Assembly (NCBI RefSeq): GCF_900112815.1
Contig: NZ_FOND01000021.1
Location: forward strand, 1-64,000
Length of the DNA stretch: 64,000 nt
Origin: Blastococcus tunisiensis
GTDB lineage: Bacteria; Actinomycetota; Actinomycetes; Mycobacteriales; Geodermatophilaceae
Direction: 5' to 3'
Shown piece by piece: positions 6,863 to 13,946 of this stretch. The notes under the pieces are model-generated. The model was given only the letters and a program-made list of their open reading frames with translations. It did no database searches and was not told the origin of the DNA. Made by a program: the position numbers and the translations under genes. Position 1 is the first letter of the stretch. Every line of letters begins with the position of its first letter.

Positions 6863-6919
6863 GATCATCGGCAGGTGGCTGCCCGACACGCCGGCAGGGG
6901 CAGCCACGCGCCGATGATC
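6863..6919. repeat. Repeat family B, copy 2
   Basis: Arms of 22 nt starting GATCATCGGC (6863-6884) pair with 6898-6919 with two mismatches. It lies between the convergent ketopantoate-reductase-like gene and pheA. Its last bases overlap the pheA stop. A bidirectional terminator is the simplest reading. Confidence 0.65.
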
Positions 6920-7868
6920 AACGCGGGGAGGGGCCGCCCCGGATGCCCGCGAGCCAGCCCTCCGCATCGGCGAAGGCCGCGTCGGCGGCCACGTCGGGCA
7001 CGGGCACGTTCTCCCGCCCGTCGGCGCGGGCGTAGGACCCGAGGAACCGGACGTCGTCGCAGACCCGGTGCAGCGCGGCCAGCGCCTCGCCCACGCGGGC
7101 GTCGGCGATGTGCCCCTCGCAGTCGAGGCTGAAGGAGTAGACGCCCAGCCGCTCCCGGGTCGGGCGGGACTCGATCCGGGTCAGCGAGATCCCCCGGACG
7201 GCGAACTCGCTGAGCAGCGCGAGCAGCGCGCCGGTGCGGTCGCCGACGACGGCGACCAGCGAGGTCTTGTCGTTGCCCGTGGGCGCGGGCAGCGCACCGG
7301 CCGGCTCGACCAGCACGAAGCGGGTCACCGCGCCCGGGGTGTCGGCGAGGTCGTCGACCAGCGCCACCAGCCCGTAGCGCTCGGCGGCGATGGGCGCGCA
7401 CACGGCGGCGTCGAAGTCCCCCGCCGCCACGGCCGCGGCGGCTCCCGCGGTCGAGGACACCGGCAGCGGGACGACGCCGGGGAACAGCTCGGCCAGCCGC
7501 CCCGCGGTCTGCGCCAGGGCGTGCGGATGGCTGGCCACCGACCGCACGCCGGCCTGCTCCGTCCCGGGCCGGACGGCCAGCACGAAGGCGACGTCGAGGA
7601 ACACCTCGCGGGTGATCACCAGGGGCGCACCGTCGGCCAGCCCGTCCATCGTGGCCGGCACCGAGCCCTCGACGGAGTTCTCCAGGGGGACCAGCGCGGC
7701 GTCGGCGTCCCCCGATCGGACGGCGGCCAGCGCCGCGGGGACACTCGGCTGGGGGTACCGCGATCCTCCCGCGGAGGAGACGGCGCTGAGGGCGGCTTCG
7801 GCGAAGGTACCCTCGGGTCCCAGATAGGCGAACCGCGTCGGAGACGTACTGGGTGGCATCCCGGGCAT
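6918..7868 (-). CDS. pheA: Prephenate dehydratase
   Basis: A 316-residue monofunctional enzyme of phenylalanine synthesis that converts prephenate to phenylpyruvate. The PDT domain runs from FAYLGPEGTFAEAAL (about residue 13) to the catalytic Thr-containing TRFVLV motif (about 183-188). An ACT regulatory domain follows, with ESRPTRERLGVYSFSLDCEGH, the usual phenylalanine-sensing ESRP motif. There is no chorismate mutase domain. About 30 residues after the ACT domain vary in the family. Start ATG at 7868; a second ATG three codons downstream is possible. No aromatic-pathway genes are adjacent. Confidence 0.95.
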   Translation of the reverse strand: MPGMPPSTSPTRFAYLGPEGTFAEAALSAVSSAGGSRYPQPSVPAALAAVRSGDADAALVPLENSVEGSVPATMDGLADGAPLVITREVFLDVAFVLAVRPGTEQAGVRSVASHPHALAQTAGRLAELFPGVVPLPVSSTAGAAAAVAAGDFDAAVCAPIAAERYGLVALVDDLADTPGAVTRFVLVEPAGALPAPTGNDKTSLVAVVGDRTGALLALLSEFAVRGISLTRIESRPTRERLGVYSFSLDCEGHIADARVGEALAALHRVCDDVRFLGSYARADGRENVPVPDVAADAAFADAEGWLAGIRGGPSPR

Positions 7869-7981
7869 CCGACGAGGGTAGTGCGGGCGGGGCGGGGCGT
7901 GTCCCGACCCGGGGGAACCGAGTCGTCACCGACAGGCTCGGCCGCAGCACGGCTGGCCCGACCCGTCAGTGGAGGGGATCT

Positions 7982-9676
7982 GTGACACCCAGCCCGGTCC
8001 GCGTCGCCTCGAGCGATCTCGCGGCCGTGCTGTGGCGCCTGCTGGACGCCAGCTCCCGGGACGACTCCACCGCCTTCCTCTGCCTCCTCGACGACGCCGA
8101 CGGCGCCTTCGCCGAGGCCACCGACGCGCGGTGGACGGCGTGGCGGCACGCCCTGGCCGCCCAGCGGGCGCTGTTCGAGAGCGACCCGGACCTCGCCGTC
8201 GAGTCCGTGGCGGCCGCCCGGGAGGCGCTGCTCGCGTGCCCGCCCTCGGCCGACACCGCGCTCACGCTGGCCTACCTGGCGCACGTCGAGGTCACCGCCG
8301 ACCACTTCGACGCCGCGATGCTGTTCGCCGTCGACGCCAGCCTGCTCACCGAGGGGCCCAACGCCGGCGAGCCCACCCGCGCCCTGCACCAGGCGCACCG
8401 CTGGCTGTCGCTGACCCTCTCGGGCCTGGACCTCGAGGAGCTCGCGGTCTCGCACGCGGTCCGCGGGCACCGGATCGCCGCCGCCCTCCCCGACCTGGGC
8501 GACCAGTGGCAGCTGCTGCAGCTCTCGGCCCAGCAGCACGCCGAGCTGGCCCAGACGCTGCGCCGGCGCGGGGACTCGGAGCGGGCCCGGGCGCTGGCCG
8601 CCGTGGCGATCGCCCAGGCCACCGAGGCCCGGGAGATGGCCTGGGAGCCGGATCCGGCCGCCGCCGACCTGCTCGACGTCGTCCAGGCGTGGGCGATGAA
8701 CAGCTCCGACGACCTGGACAGCGCCATGGGCCCGCTGCGCCGGGTCCGCCGCCGCGTGCAGGAGCACGGTGGCCTGTGGCTGCGCGGCTACACCGACCTC
8801 GTCCTGGCCCGCCTGCTGGTCCGGGTGGCCCAGCGCGACGAGGACGCGGAGTACGGCGAGGAGGCCATCGGCCTGCTGGTGGACGCCGCCGGCGCCTTCG
8901 TGGCCTCCGGGGACCGGCGCCGCTACCGGCAGTGCCTGCTGGAGCTGGGGCAGAGCACCGCCGACCTGGGCCGGCCCGCCGAGGCGCTGCACTGGCTGGA
9001 GGCCTACCGCGCCGACACCGGCCGGGCGCACGCGCGCGGCCGGGAGATGTGGGCGGAGATGTTCATCCGCCGCAGCCGGCTGCGCGAGGCCGAGCGGCAG
9101 GCCGCCCTGCTGCGCCGGCACGCCCTGGAGGACCCGCTCACCGGCCTGGGCAACCGGCGCAGCGCCGAGCGGCGGCTGGGCACGATGCCGCTCGGCGAGG
9201 AGCCGCTGTCGCTGGCCGTGGTCGACGTCGACCGGTTCAAGAAGGTGAACGACGAGGCGTCGCACACCCACGGGGACGCCGTCCTCCGCCGGGTGGCCGA
9301 CCTGCTGCGGGAACACAGCCGCACCGGCGACGAGGTGTACCGCTGGGCGGGCGACGAGTTCCTGGTCGTGCTGCCGACGGCGACGGAGGCCCAGGCGCTC
9401 GTGGTGATGGAACGGCTCCGCGCGGCCGTGGCCGAGGCGGACTGGAGCGACCTCGTGCCCGGCCCGGTCACCGTCAGCATCGGCGTGGCCACCGCGCCGG
9501 CCGTCGAGGAGCAGCCGCCGGCCGAACCACCCCGGCCGGGAGGGGGCTGGCGGGCGCTGTTCGACACCGCCGATCTGCACCTGTTCTCCGCCAAGCGCAG
9601 CGGCCGCAACCGCGTGCGGGCTCCCGGCGGGGAGGCCGCTGCCGGCTCCGGCGGACCGTCCCCGGCCCCCGCGTGA
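7982..9676 (+). CDS. Diguanylate cyclase with N-terminal helical repeat domain
   Basis: A 564-residue soluble protein. Residues 1-380 are rich in paired helices resembling a TPR-like sensory scaffold, with no TM segment. A coiled segment (RSRLREAERQAALLRRHA) leads into a GGDEF domain starting DPLTGLGNRRSAERRL. The signature is AGDEF at residues 456-460, a variant found in active cyclases. RTGD, five residues before it, matches the c-di-GMP inhibitory I-site. The family makes c-di-GMP from two GTP. The start is GTG 7982 with GGAGGGG just upstream, though the frame is open for 43 codons further left. The stop overlaps the start of the next GGDEF gene. Confidence 0.9.
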   Translation: MTPSPVRVASSDLAAVLWRLLDASSRDDSTAFLCLLDDADGAFAEATDARWTAWRHALAAQRALFESDPDLAVESVAAAREALLACPPSADTALTLAYLAHVEVTADHFDAAMLFAVDASLLTEGPNAGEPTRALHQAHRWLSLTLSGLDLEELAVSHAVRGHRIAAALPDLGDQWQLLQLSAQQHAELAQTLRRRGDSERARALAAVAIAQATEAREMAWEPDPAAADLLDVVQAWAMNSSDDLDSAMGPLRRVRRRVQEHGGLWLRGYTDLVLARLLVRVAQRDEDAEYGEEAIGLLVDAAGAFVASGDRRRYRQCLLELGQSTADLGRPAEALHWLEAYRADTGRAHARGREMWAEMFIRRSRLREAERQAALLRRHALEDPLTGLGNRRSAERRLGTMPLGEEPLSLAVVDVDRFKKVNDEASHTHGDAVLRRVADLLREHSRTGDEVYRWAGDEFLVVLPTATEAQALVVMERLRAAVAEADWSDLVPGPVTVSIGVATAPAVEEQPPAEPPRPGGGWRALFDTADLHLFSAKRSGRNRVRAPGGEAAAGSGGPSPAPA

Positions 9677-12651
9677 CCAGCTCCGCCTGGGACGCGTGGG
9701 ACGCGTCGGACGGGGGACGGCGCGTTCCCGAACAGGTGCTCGACAGCGCACCCGACGCCGTGCACAGTGCGCTCGTGCCGCCCGGAACCCTGCACCGCCG
9801 GGTGACCGCTGCCCTGGCGAACTGGCAGCTCGACGACGCCGAGGAGCTCCTCGCCGACGTGGAGCGCGAGCCCTCGCCGTACGTCGTCGCGGACCCGGTG
9901 GCCGACGCCCCCGCGGACGCCCCTGTCTCGCTGGGCAAGGCGTGGGCCGACACCCTGCGCGCCGAGCTGCTCGTCCGGCGCCTCCGCGTCGCCGGCTTCA
10001 CCCTCGTCGGCGACCCGGTGACCGCCGGTGCCGCGGCCGGCGACCCGCTGGACCTGCACGCCGGCGTCGCCGACCTCATCGAGGGCACCGGCGAGGACGG
10101 CGACCCGCGGTCGGAGTCGGCCTCCCGCGCCGCGCTGGCCATCGCCCTGGTCCGGTCGGCGAAGGCCGCCTTCGACGCCTCCGACGACGACCTGCAGCGC
10201 GCCGCCGGCCTGGCCCGGCACGCCCGGATCGAGCTGCTCTCCCGGCGCATCGACGCCGCCATGGACGAGGCCGTCGAGGCCGCCAGCCTGCTCGACCCGG
10301 TCCTGCCGCCCAGTGCCCTGCTGGTGGACACGCTCGGCACCCTCGCCGGCGTGCTCGCCGACCTCGAGCTCATGCCGCTGGCGCTGGACTACCAGCGGCG
10401 GGCCCACGAGGCGGCGCTGACCGCCGCCGCCGACCCGGCCGCCGCGGGGTGGTCCGGGGACGGTGACGCCGCCGACGTCGTGGTGGCCACCACCGCCACC
10501 TGTCTCGGCGAGCTCTGCGCGGAGCTGGGCGAGGGCCTGCTGGACGACGGCGTCCCCGAGTCGGCCGTGCCGCACTTCGCCGAGGCGCGCCTGCTGGCGG
10601 AGAAGGCCCTCGAGCTGCTGCCCCCGGACAGCCCCGGGCTCGTCCCCGCGCAGGTGGTGCACGGCTGGGCGCTGGTGGGGCTCGGCGAGCACGCCGCCGC
10701 CGTGGGCCCGCTGCGCGCCGCCGTGCGCGTCACCTCGGCGACGGCCGACCGCGCCCAGCTGGCGTCGGCGCAGCTCGCCCTGGGCCGGGCGCTGCGCCGC
10801 CAGGGCGACGTGTCCGAGGCCGACGAGCACCTGGTCTCGGCGCTGAGCCTGGCCACCGAGCACGGCCTCCCCCGGCTGCGGCGGGCCGCGCTGCGCGAGC
10901 TGTGCACCCTGCACGCCGAGCTGGACGACGCCGGACGCGCGCTCCCCTACCTGCAGGCCTACCTCTCCGACGAGCTGGACCGGGTCGACGAGCGGCGCAC
11001 CCGGTGGGTGGAGCTGTTCGGCCGGCGCAAGAGCCTGCTGGAGACCGAGCGGGCCGCCGGCCAGCTCCGCCGCCAGGCCTACGAGGACCCGCTCACCCAC
11101 CTGCCCAACCGCCGCTACGCCGAGGCCCGGCTCGACGGGCTGCTGGCCACCGGCGGCGCCCCCGCGCTCGCCGTGGTGGACGTGGACCGCTTCAAGTCGA
11201 TCAACGACGCCTTCGGTCACCCCGCCGGCGACGCCGCGCTGCGCACCGTCGGCGAGCTGCTCGTGGCCGGCGTCCGCGACACCGACGAGGTGTGCCGCTG
11301 GGCCGGGGACGAGTTCGTCATCCTGCTCCCCGACACCACGGCCGAGCAGGGCGAGCGGGCCCTGGAGCGGATCCGCCGCTCGGTGGCGACCTACGACTGG
11401 TCCTCCCTCGGCATCGAGGCCCCGGTCACCATCAGCGTGGGCATCGCCTCGGCCGCCCGCGGTGACGACCGGCGGACCCTCTTCGCCGCCGCCGACGGCG
11501 TCCTCTACGACGCCAAGCGCAGCGGCCGCGACCGCGTCGTCCGGCTGTCCGGGGTGACCCAGACACGGGCAGCCGGCGCCAGCCCGCTCGACGTCCTGTT
11601 CGGCCCCCCGCCGTCCGCCGACGGGGCCACGCCCTCCGGGCCGGACGACGACGGCACCGCGGACGGCGCCACCGCGGACACGCACACGGCGGACAGCGGC
11701 ACCGCAGGCACCGGCACGGCGGACACCCGGACTCCGGACGCCGGTGGCCCGGGCAGTCCGGTGGCGTCCCCCGCCCCCGACGCGACTCCCGTGCCGCGGC
11801 CCGCCGCCGAGGCGGCCGACGGGTTCGCCCCCCTGCTCGTCCCGCCGCGGCCGGCGCACCCGCCGCTGGGCACGGGCGGGCCGGCCGAGCCGCTGCTGGG
11901 CCCGCTGCCCGCGTCGGGACCGGTCGTCGTGCCGGCAGCTCCCGCCGCCGTGCAGCCCGCCGCCGTCGAGCCCGCGCCGGTCCCGCCCACCCCCGTGGAG
12001 CCGGCGACACCCGCCGCCGCACGACGCACCGCCGCGGTGGAGCCGGAGGTCGTCTGGGCCACCGGCCGCACCACCGAGCAGGTCCTCGCCCTGGTCCGCG
12101 AGGCGCGGCGCGAGCACCCCGACCGGCCGGCGCTGGTGCTGCGCGCCGGCGCGGAGACGCTCGTGGCCCTCGCCTCCGAGCACGACGCGTACACGACGAT
12201 GGACGCCGCGGCGATGGCGGCGGCGGTCGGGCCGGTGCCCGAGCCGGTGGGCCGCGTGCACGTGCTGTGCGCCGGCGGGGCCGACGGTCCCGTCGCGGCG
12301 GAGGTCGCCTTCGTCGCGCGGGTCAGCGGCACCGCGGCCGTGCGGCTGGACGACGTCGCCGGCAGCCGGCTCCGCGACCTGCTCGCCGACGGCTCGGCGT
12401 TCGCCGGCGCCGACTGCCTGGTCGTCGTGGCCGGGCTGGACGCCTCGCTCGCGGCGACCGTGGGGGAGGCCGCCGACGTCCCCGTGGTGGCGGTGCCCAC
12501 CTCGGCGGGGACGCCGAACGCCTTCGCCGGCCTCGGCGCGCTGGTGACGATGCTGAACTCGGCCGCGCCGGGCGTCGCCGTCACCGCCATCGACAACGGC
12601 TGGTCCGCCGGCGTGTTCGCCGCCCGCGTCGCCCGACGGGCGGCTGTGTGA
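9673..12651 (+). CDS. GGDEF protein with C-terminal degenerate LarB-like domain
   Basis: A 992-residue protein in one uninterrupted frame. Residues 1-430 are helical-repeat rich and similar in style to the upstream gene. A GGDEF domain follows (about 460-630), starting DPLTHLPNRRYAEARL, with AGDEF at 544-548 and RDTD as a possible I-site. A 155-residue Pro/Ala/Thr/Asp linker leads to a LarB-like domain (about 785-985) with PEVVWATGRTTEQV, VPVVAVPTSAG, GLGALVTMLNS and IDNGWSAG. LarB carboxylates nicotinate adenine dinucleotide for the nickel-pincer cofactor. Here Ala964 replaces the catalytic Cys of the LNSC motif, and the GTSD and HRLL motifs are changed. The GTG start overlaps the previous stop (GTGA). 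larC is next. Confidence 0.85.
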   Translation: MTSSAWDAWDASDGGRRVPEQVLDSAPDAVHSALVPPGTLHRRVTAALANWQLDDAEELLADVEREPSPYVVADPVADAPADAPVSLGKAWADTLRAELLVRRLRVAGFTLVGDPVTAGAAAGDPLDLHAGVADLIEGTGEDGDPRSESASRAALAIALVRSAKAAFDASDDDLQRAAGLARHARIELLSRRIDAAMDEAVEAASLLDPVLPPSALLVDTLGTLAGVLADLELMPLALDYQRRAHEAALTAAADPAAAGWSGDGDAADVVVATTATCLGELCAELGEGLLDDGVPESAVPHFAEARLLAEKALELLPPDSPGLVPAQVVHGWALVGLGEHAAAVGPLRAAVRVTSATADRAQLASAQLALGRALRRQGDVSEADEHLVSALSLATEHGLPRLRRAALRELCTLHAELDDAGRALPYLQAYLSDELDRVDERRTRWVELFGRRKSLLETERAAGQLRRQAYEDPLTHLPNRRYAEARLDGLLATGGAPALAVVDVDRFKSINDAFGHPAGDAALRTVGELLVAGVRDTDEVCRWAGDEFVILLPDTTAEQGERALERIRRSVATYDWSSLGIEAPVTISVGIASAARGDDRRTLFAAADGVLYDAKRSGRDRVVRLSGVTQTRAAGASPLDVLFGPPPSADGATPSGPDDDGTADGATADTHTADSGTAGTGTADTRTPDAGGPGSPVASPAPDATPVPRPAAEAADGFAPLLVPPRPAHPPLGTGGPAEPLLGPLPASGPVVVPAAPAAVQPAAVEPAPVPPTPVEPATPAAARRTAAVEPEVVWATGRTTEQVLALVREARREHPDRPALVLRAGAETLVALASEHDAYTTMDAAAMAAAVGPVPEPVGRVHVLCAGGADGPVAAEVAFVARVSGTAAVRLDDVAGSRLRDLLADGSAFAGADCLVVVAGLDASLAATVGEAADVPVVAVPTSAGTPNAFAGLGALVTMLNSAAPGVAVTAIDNGWSAGVFAARVARRAAV

Positions 12652-12758
12652 TCTGTCGTCCTCCGGACGACACCGCGCCCAACAGCCCGCCGGGAGCCCT
12701 CCGGGCCCCGCGGCAGGTCCACCCGCGGCCGAGTGCCGTTCCCGGCAGCCGCTGGGCC

Positions 12759-13946
12759 ATGATCGAGCGCATGATCGGCTGGCTGGACCTCTCCGCGGGC
12801 GCCTCGGGGGACATGCTCCTGGGCGCGCTGGTCGACGCCGGGGTGCCGCTGGAGGTACTCACCACCGCGGTCGCCGCGCTCCCGGTCGAGCGGATCCGGC
12901 TGGTGACCGAGCAGACGACCCGCCACGGCCTCGGGGCCACCCGGGTGCACGTGCACGCACCGCCGTCGTCCGAGCACCGCACCTGGGCCGACGTCCGGGA
13001 CCTGCTGGCCGGCGCCGGACTGCCGACCCCGGTCCGGGACGGCGCGCTCGCCGTCTTCGAGCGGCTGGCCGTGGCCGAGGGCCGGGTCCACCGGGTGCCC
13101 CCCGACGACGTGCACTTCCACGAGGTCGGCGCGCTGGACGCGCTGGCCGACGTCGTCGGGGTCGTGGCCGGCCTCGAGCACCTGGGGCTCACCCGGCTGA
13201 GCGCCTCCCCCGTGGCACTGGGCAGCGGCACCGTGCGCAGCGCGCACGGGGTGGTGCCGATCCCCGGCCCCGCGGTCCTGGAGCTGCTGCGCGGTGTCCC
13301 GGTGGTCGCCGGGCCGGTGCCGGCCGAGATGTGCACCCCGACCGGCGCGGCCCTGCTCGCCGCCCGGGTGGACGAGTGGACGACGCTGCCGCCGATGCGG
13401 GTGGAACGCGTCGGCGTCGGCGCGGGCGGACGGGACCCGGCCGAGCTGCCCAACGTCGTCCGCCTGGTGCTCGGGGAGGCCGCGGCGCCGCAACCGGCCG
13501 GGCCGGTGGTCCTGGAAACCAACGTCGACGACCTCGACCCGCGGCTGTGGCCGGGCGTCCTGGAGGCGCTGCTCGCCGCCGGCGCCTCCGACGCCTGGCT
13601 GACCCCGATCCTGATGAAGAAGGGCCGCCCGGCGCACACCCTGTCGGCGCTGTGCCCCCCGGCGGCCGTCCCCGGCGTGGAGGCGGCGGTCTTCGCCGGC
13701 ACGTCGAGCATCGGCCTGCGGGTCGTCCCGGTCGGCAAGGTCGCGCTGGAGCGGGTGCAGACCTCGGTGGAGGTGCTCGGCGGCCGCACCGGCGTCAAGC
13801 TCTCCGTGCACGACGGGCGGGTGGTGAACGTCAGCGTCGAGTACGAGGACGTCGCCGCGCTCGCCCGCGACCTGGGCCTGCCGGCCAAGGAGGTGCTGCG
13901 CGCCGCCACGGCGGCGGCGGAGGCGGCTCATCCCGTCGGCCCGTGA
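12759..13946 (+). CDS. larC: LarC-family nickel insertion protein
   Basis: A 395-residue protein with the LarC N terminus (WLDLSAGASGDMLLGALVDAG), the DVHFHEVGALDALADVVG motif, GSGTVRSAHGVVPIPGPAVLELL, TPTGAALLA and the C-terminal VVLETNVDDLDPRLWPGVLEALLAAG block. LarC uses CTP to insert nickel into the pyridinium-dithio-mononucleotide cofactor used by lactate racemase-type enzymes. Both halves are in one frame, unlike species that need a frameshift. ATG 12759 is taken as start; ATG 12771 is equally possible. It lies 107 bp after the GGDEF-LarB gene. No larE or larA is visible in this window. Confidence 0.92.
   Translation: MIERMIGWLDLSAGASGDMLLGALVDAGVPLEVLTTAVAALPVERIRLVTEQTTRHGLGATRVHVHAPPSSEHRTWADVRDLLAGAGLPTPVRDGALAVFERLAVAEGRVHRVPPDDVHFHEVGALDALADVVGVVAGLEHLGLTRLSASPVALGSGTVRSAHGVVPIPGPAVLELLRGVPVVAGPVPAEMCTPTGAALLAARVDEWTTLPPMRVERVGVGAGGRDPAELPNVVRLVLGEAAAPQPAGPVVLETNVDDLDPRLWPGVLEALLAAGASDAWLTPILMKKGRPAHTLSALCPPAAVPGVEAAVFAGTSSIGLRVVPVGKVALERVQTSVEVLGGRTGVKLSVHDGRVVNVSVEYEDVAALARDLGLPAKEVLRAATAAAEAAHPVGP

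Follow-up and report, generated by a model that had tools for sequence, protein, structure and literature searches.

A LarB-like domain, likely a pseudoenzyme, fused to a diguanylate cyclase in the Geodermatophilaceae

Why does a putative diguanylate cyclase end in a domain of nickel-pincer nucleotide (NPN) synthesis, and does that domain, with larC beside it, mean that the protein serves this pathway? The question is raised by a gene of Blastococcus tunisiensis that lies within the first 64,000 nucleotides of contig NZ_FOND01000021.1 (the whole of this stretch is called the window below) and whose product joins a GGDEF domain to a C-terminal domain resembling LarB. We find that the fusion is a family trait of the Geodermatophilaceae, that the LarB fold has been retained while its catalytic apparatus has been lost, making the domain a likely pseudoenzyme, and that the domain is under purifying selection where pathway genes were not found. 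The explanation that we consider probable is that a diguanylate cyclase took up larB, which then became a regulatory or oligomerisation module, catalytically dead and independent of NPN synthesis. The gene and its parts are as follows.

9673..12651, + strand: TPR-GGDEF-linker-LarB-like fusion gene, an open frame of 992 amino acids with a GTG start
9781..11052, + strand: N-terminal all-helical TPR-like region, residues about 37-460 (Pfam TPR matches below cut-off, AlphaFold2 model, Foldseek)
11077..11535, + strand: GGDEF domain, residues 469-621 (Pfam), with an AGDEF A-site and an RDTD (RxxD) I-site
11551..12021, + strand: variable linker rich in Pro and Ala (64-170 amino acids and about 40% Pro plus Ala in the 71 of 94 linkers parsed)
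12022..12636, + strand: LarB-like domain, residues 784-988, catalytically degenerate (NF033503, LarB entries of the PDB, AlphaFold2)
12178..12204, + strand: EHDAYTTMD, residues 836-844, a motif specific to the fused type in the alignment with other LarBs
12280..12282, + strand: Ala870, at the position of LarB Ser127 (Ser in 0 of 103 fused-type rows and in 58 of 60 others)
12562..12564, + strand: Ala964 (gcc), aligned with Cys221 of Lactiplantibacillus plantarum LarB

Translation of the gene confirmed the uninterrupted 992-codon frame described in the first-pass annotation, with zero internal stops, and gave the order TPR-like region, GGDEF domain, linker and LarB-fold domain. The GGDEF domain is matched by Pfam with an E-value of 2.3e-38 (132 bits against a cut-off of 23.8) and carries the A-site motif. 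The TPR-like region was modelled by AlphaFold2 with moderate confidence (mean predicted local distance difference test score, pLDDT, 69), and a Foldseek search with this model returned TPR proteins as best matches (E about 1e-5), with low TM-scores. For residues 784-988 the NCBIfam LarB profile NF033503 scored 136.9 bits, below its 175-bit cut-off, which among 41 related genomes is exceeded by one fused copy (locus L081, 177.3 bits). The best sequence match in the PDB is L. plantarum LarB (E about 1e-30), and the best 27 Foldseek matches of the domain model, itself of moderate confidence (pLDDT 76), are all LarB chains (E 3.5e-14 to 7.5e-11, TM about 0.6, root-mean-square deviation 9-11). The region of the EHDAYTTMD loop is poorly predicted, pLDDT falling below 50 at model residues 55-72. 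The assignment of the C-terminal domain to LarB made in the first-pass annotation is thus upheld by profile, sequence and structure comparisons.

To what extent is the domain still an enzyme? We aligned 103 fused-type domains with 31 standalone and 29 larE-linked LarBs. Cys221 of L. plantarum LarB, which we take to be the catalytic residue, is found in 0 of the 102 fused-type rows that have a letter at this position compared with 60 of 60 standalone and larE-linked LarBs, the larE-linked set having been taken by a pattern that includes the Cys (31 loci examined, the two non-matching ones being fused copies). The loss of the cysteine first noticed at Ala964 is therefore not peculiar to the window. 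K57, S127, G181, Y204, F234 and G235 likewise occur in none of the 103 fused-type rows, each being constant in 57-60 of the 60 other LarBs, and Ala or Gly stands at the Ser127 position in 99 of 103. GVAGxHR is mostly erased (V154 in 3, A155 in 6, G156 in 1, H158 in 8 and R159 in 1 of 103 rows); in the window GTSD reads GGAD and VAGIHR is changed, as the first-pass annotation had it. Tests for LarB on the Ser127, GVAGxHR and GYG motifs were all negative for the fused type. Other residues are kept, namely P199-T200-S201 and E134 in all 103 rows, D128 in 101, D231 in 102, and G178 and G233 in 101-103.

Alongside these losses, new conserved residues have appeared. Twelve positions are near-constant in the fused type alone, including R799, H837, T841 and T842, and L830 and A924 are also among the residues gained. 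Of the 103 fused-type rows 88 carry the motif EHxxxTTxD, compared with 0 of 60 other LarBs; T842 and D844 are present in all 103, although an Asp at the D844 position is common in other LarBs too. Because of these gained positions and this motif, the residue pattern looks like the product of a new constraint rather than of decay.

The fusion itself was sought across genomes. Scanned for the sequence pattern, 84,980 genomes yielded at least 43 loci that carry it, by their titles from Blastococcus, Modestobacter, Klenkia, Geodermatophilus, Goekera and other Geodermatophilaceae, one 'Frankiales' metagenome-assembled genome (MAG) and one unverified 'Bacillus'. The domain of this last locus (L012, labelled 'UNVERIFIED_ORG: Bacillus sp. 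AZ43') is 84% identical to that of the window, and the record looks like Blastococcus. Profile searches found a LarB match in 111 of 112 Geodermatophilaceae genomes. Nine of the 112 (groups g5-g7) are without the fused type (sequences were seen for seven of the nine and are of the standalone type with Cys), and the fused type, called from profile scores and fetched sequences, is present in 101 of the remaining 103 and in 91 of the 92 that are near-complete (at least 90% complete, at most 5% contaminated). Related genomes, to which the first-pass annotation had pointed, carry the same fusion across most of the family. Outside the family, 18 loci were fetched from among the matches: every one of them retains the Cys, and GGDEF matches are absent from all of their stretches.

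Because high-GC DNA contains few stop codons, two separate genes might be read as one frame. There are hints of this kind: an internal GTG lies at 12037 in the window, 45 of the 71 parsed loci have start codons close to the domain (a stretch resembling a Shine-Dalgarno sequence accompanies 4 of them), and in 2 of 96 loci the GGDEF and LarB parts are in different frames. However, the two parts share a single open frame in 94 of the 96 Geodermatophilaceae loci with enough upstream sequence despite the varying length of the linker (seven more fused-type loci are cut by contig ends and excluded from these counts). In the 71 linkers delimited by a motif parser that skipped 23 of 94, the base composition resembles that of coding sequence (GC 0.87/0.66/0.93 at codon positions 1/2/3), and stops interrupt the two alternative frames in 36 and 24 cases, respectively. 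We therefore regard an annotation artefact as very improbable, and frameshift or misassembly, the flaw that the first-pass annotation had thought of, was rejected because of the single frame in 94 of 96 loci. The GGDEF motifs are equally regular across the 94 fused loci, with AGDEF in 89, AGDEY in 5 and RxxD in all. In L154, which is included among the fused loci, a stop in frame separates the TPR part from the GGDEF domain. Locus L202 gave no match, and L043 and L046, two contig pieces of one MAG, are rows of the residue alignment that were omitted from the analysis of gained positions.

If the fused domain has lost its catalytic site, which protein makes the NPN precursor? The window genome contains a second, intact larB, as the first-pass annotation had suggested looking for, with its motifs and Cys and next to larE on contig C21. 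Of the 91 near-complete genomes of the fused type, larE is present in 56, each of which also gives a second LarB match; the fused domain is the sole LarB match in 0 of 56. Second LarBs were counted as matches per genome at E up to 1e-3, with 28 candidates scored in most genomes, and their Cys-type identity was seen in the 29 larE-linked and the fetched standalone sequences. The idea that the fused domain is the working LarB of its genome was rejected on these counts. Nor is there support for the first-pass suggestion that it performs the step by a different route that dispenses with Cys221. In favour of an active enzyme one can cite purifying selection and a set of invariant residues, but the catalytic-site motifs have changed together and no larE-positive near-complete genome has the fused domain as its only LarB match, and we consider this suggestion most improbable.

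The remaining genomes speak to whether the fused protein needs the pathway at all. Thirty-four of the 91 have no second LarB match, and all 34 are without larE; absence of larE or larC here means no match at E up to 1e-20. In 28 of 91 there is no larE, larC or other LarB match. Since these 28 genomes keep the fusion, the fused protein does not need the NPN pathway. Scoring of all candidates in 41 genomes with the curated LarB profile similarly gave 9 without larC, without larE over the cut-off and without a LarB beyond the fused one. In 7 of 91 genomes larC is kept and larE was not found; one of them, G141, has a short partial larE match perhaps cut by a contig end and belongs neither to the 28 nor to the six that follow. 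In these six (L025, L163, L168, L169, L170 and L197) larC is kept without larE and the fusion is the sole LarB match; in five of them the larC match starts 20-23 bp beyond the end of the fused frame, and in the sixth the distance is 3.6 kb.

We could not link the fusion to an NPN user, because LarA (Lar_N) gave no match in the window genome at E up to 10 and was found in 15 of 42 genomes searched. According to PMC11796402, about 15% of the genomes analysed there hold larB, larE and larC without larA. In the window genome, which may make NPN without having a recognised user of it, larE and the intact larB are convergent (C21:293878-295322; L002, L006). Geodermatophilus-type genomes (L124-L126, L144-L146) have, besides the fused gene, a separate lar gene set of another lineage; of these six stretches five have larB with larC and five have larE.

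We determined how strongly the domain is constrained from simple pairwise Nei-Gojobori ratios of nonsynonymous to synonymous substitution rates (dN/dS) in a small number of pairs. In nine pairs labelled as having no pathway or no larC the LarB-like domain gave 0.08-0.37 (the label is unproved for one 'no pathway' pair, whose member L044 is not among the genomes searched), and in seven pathway pairs it gave 0.05-0.26. The values for pheA were 0.19-0.34 in the same nine pairs and 0.17-0.34 over all readable pairs. A GGDEF value for the pair L018/L037 compares unrelated matches and was disregarded. In the two pairs that keep larC without larE, larC gave 0.28-0.39 versus 0.12-0.24 in seven pathway pairs, whereas the LarB-like domain stays at 0.11-0.13.

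The neighbourhood of the fusion shows where the domain may have come from. Three further features of the window matter here.

6918..7868, - strand: pheA (prephenate dehydratase), a divergent syntenic marker identified by profile matches
7853..9676, + strand: second TPR-GGDEF gene, without a LarB domain, overlapping the fusion gene by 4 bp; start uncertain
12759..13946, + strand: larC, the sole larC match in the genome (PF01969, 435 bits); start may be 12771

The gene order is thus pheA on the opposite strand, TPR-GGDEF, TPR-GGDEF-LarB-like and larC. Divergent pheA and the tandem TPR-GGDEF gene accompany the fusion in 91 of 91 loci with at least 5 kb upstream, the N-terminal part of the tandem gene being matched in all of them, and the two tandem cyclases may act as a pair. 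The fusion frame ends at 12651 and the larC ATG is at 12759, which confirms the 107-bp gap of the first-pass annotation, though alignments of relatives begin closer to the next ATG, at 12771.

Eleven standalone larB loci with the Cys intact have larC directly downstream and a divergent pheA (at 3.4-4.4 kb in two, within 0.7 kb in the other nine), and GGDEF matches are absent from the sequence read around them; eight are from other families of the order and three from group g7 of the Geodermatophilaceae. In a larC tree (17 of 54 fused-locus larC sequences and 24 others) the fused-locus larC groups with these pheA-linked larB-larC operons (support 86/99, one stray long-branch row included), and the separate lar operons of Geodermatophilus-type genomes stand apart (97/97). 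Descent of the fused domain from a pheA-linked larB is therefore likely, a statement that we base on synteny and the larC tree because the LarB-domain tree (28 of 103 fused-type, 15 of 29 larE-linked and 31 of 31 standalone rows) could not decide between a pheA-linked and a larE-linked larB. The adjacency of larC on which the first-pass annotation leaned is real as an observation and is probably inherited synteny rather than a sign of present function.

Several observations weigh against capture from this locus followed by independence from the pathway. The pheA-linked L121 and L123 fall outside the fused-locus larC clade, and L113 and L141 are not in the tree. The LarB tree groups the fused type with pheA-linked standalone LarBs at a support of only 80, a grouping of fused with larE-linked LarBs is not rejected (p-AU, from the approximately unbiased test, 0.47), and the log-likelihood was 12.7 higher for a tree with a wider larE-linked grouping, long branches being present. 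In Klenkia the domain's dN/dS reaches 0.37, that is, moderate constraint. Finally, 33 of the 94 fused loci have larC on the same strand at a distance of no more than 150 bp (in 39 of the 94 it was not seen in the roughly 5 kb or more read downstream), and both the proximity and the six genomes with larC, no larE and the fusion as sole LarB match would fit a link to LarC.

Such a link would make the fusion protein a regulator of NPN synthesis, for example by binding LarC or the intact LarB, and tie the supply of nickel-pincer cofactor to cyclic di-GMP (c-di-GMP). We think this quite unlikely, although it may hold within the subset of genomes that keep the pathway. Besides the apparently ancestral adjacency, loss of larE goes with faster evolution of larC but not of the LarB-like domain, and the protein persists in the 28 genomes described above. 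As a general role NPN regulation was rejected on this last count. Of the proposal that the domain is a pseudoenzyme for c-di-GMP-linked regulation, made in the first-pass annotation, the pseudoenzyme part stands, but a conserved connection between c-di-GMP and NPN synthesis does not.

Capture of larB as a dead module would have proceeded as follows. In an ancestor shared by most Geodermatophilaceae, a chromosomal larB between divergent pheA and larC would have been joined to the second member of a tandem pair of TPR-GGDEF genes. This ancestry, like the sequence in which fusion and loss took place, is a reconstruction. Where larE is present, the separate larB would do the catalysis. The captured domain would have lost its catalytic apparatus and gained conserved residues of its own (EHxxxTTxD; R799, L830, A924), to become the C-terminal regulatory or oligomerisation module of a cyclase that, judged from its motifs, looks active. 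The LarB/PurE fold forms oligomers in its enzymes; a domain of this fold on a flexible linker could therefore bring cyclase domains together, and the module may in this way tune GGDEF dimerisation. It may also, or instead, use the new motif to bind an altered ligand or a partner, and the TPR part and the EHxxxTTxD loop would be putative inputs. The oligomeric role, the binding of a ligand and a c-di-GMP output of the fusion are all inferred.

A different use of the dead fold would be as a new ligand-sensing module, in which a remade pocket with the EHxxxTTxD loop binds a nucleotide-like effector, possibly nicotinic acid adenine dinucleotide (NaAD), NAD or an NPN intermediate, without turnover and switches the GGDEF domain, so that c-di-GMP would report pyridine-nucleotide or NPN status. 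The retained fold with its PTS, D128 and E134 is consistent with this, as is the fact that S127A LarB was crystallised in complexes, according to the titles of PDB entries, since the fused type has Ala or Gly at that position almost throughout. However, the loss of K57, Y204, Phe234 and most of GVAGxHR means that the old pocket has probably been remade, and retention of the fusion where pathway genes were not found speaks against NPN intermediates as a general ligand. We hold sensing of this kind to be rather unlikely; if true, cyclase activity would follow the pyridine-nucleotide state in these actinobacteria.

Should capture as a dead module be correct, a second-messenger enzyme would have taken over an enzyme of cofactor biosynthesis, which lost its catalytic site and persists where the pathway genes are gone. 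The likely ancestral locus, its descendants with the fusion and genomes without the pathway can all be compared. Our data also warn against deducing NPN synthesis from a LarB annotation beside larC, and the fused LarB-like domain offers a testable new partner domain for diguanylate cyclases. Among openly licensed papers we found no relevant one on LarB with GGDEF, nickel pincer with c-di-GMP, AIR (5-aminoimidazole ribonucleotide) carboxylase with GGDEF, or pseudoenzyme with cyclase, and as far as this literature was searched a diguanylate cyclase partner domain made from a pseudoenzyme has not been described.

Three known systems come close. With LarB, the synthase of pyridinium-3,5-biscarboxylic acid mononucleotide (P2CMN; NF033503; L. 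plantarum PDB entries 7mj0-7mj2, 8soq, 8stc and 8std), the fused domain shares the fold, about 35% identity and the residues PTS, D128, E134 and D231, but it is without Cys221, Ser127, Lys57, Tyr204 and most of GVAGxHR, is joined to a GGDEF domain, has EHxxxTTxD and is kept where pathway genes were not found. PurE, or AIR carboxylase (PF00731), belongs to the same superfamily and weakly matches the C-terminal half of the fused domain, which however has the N-terminal part of LarB and gives no indication of a purine role; the window genome has a strong AIR carboxylase match of its own on C28 (217.7 bits). Finally, the fusion shares its A-site and RxxD I-site motifs with GGDEF diguanylate cyclases that carry N-terminal sensors (PF00990), and differs from them in having a C-terminal domain derived from a cofactor-biosynthesis enzyme.

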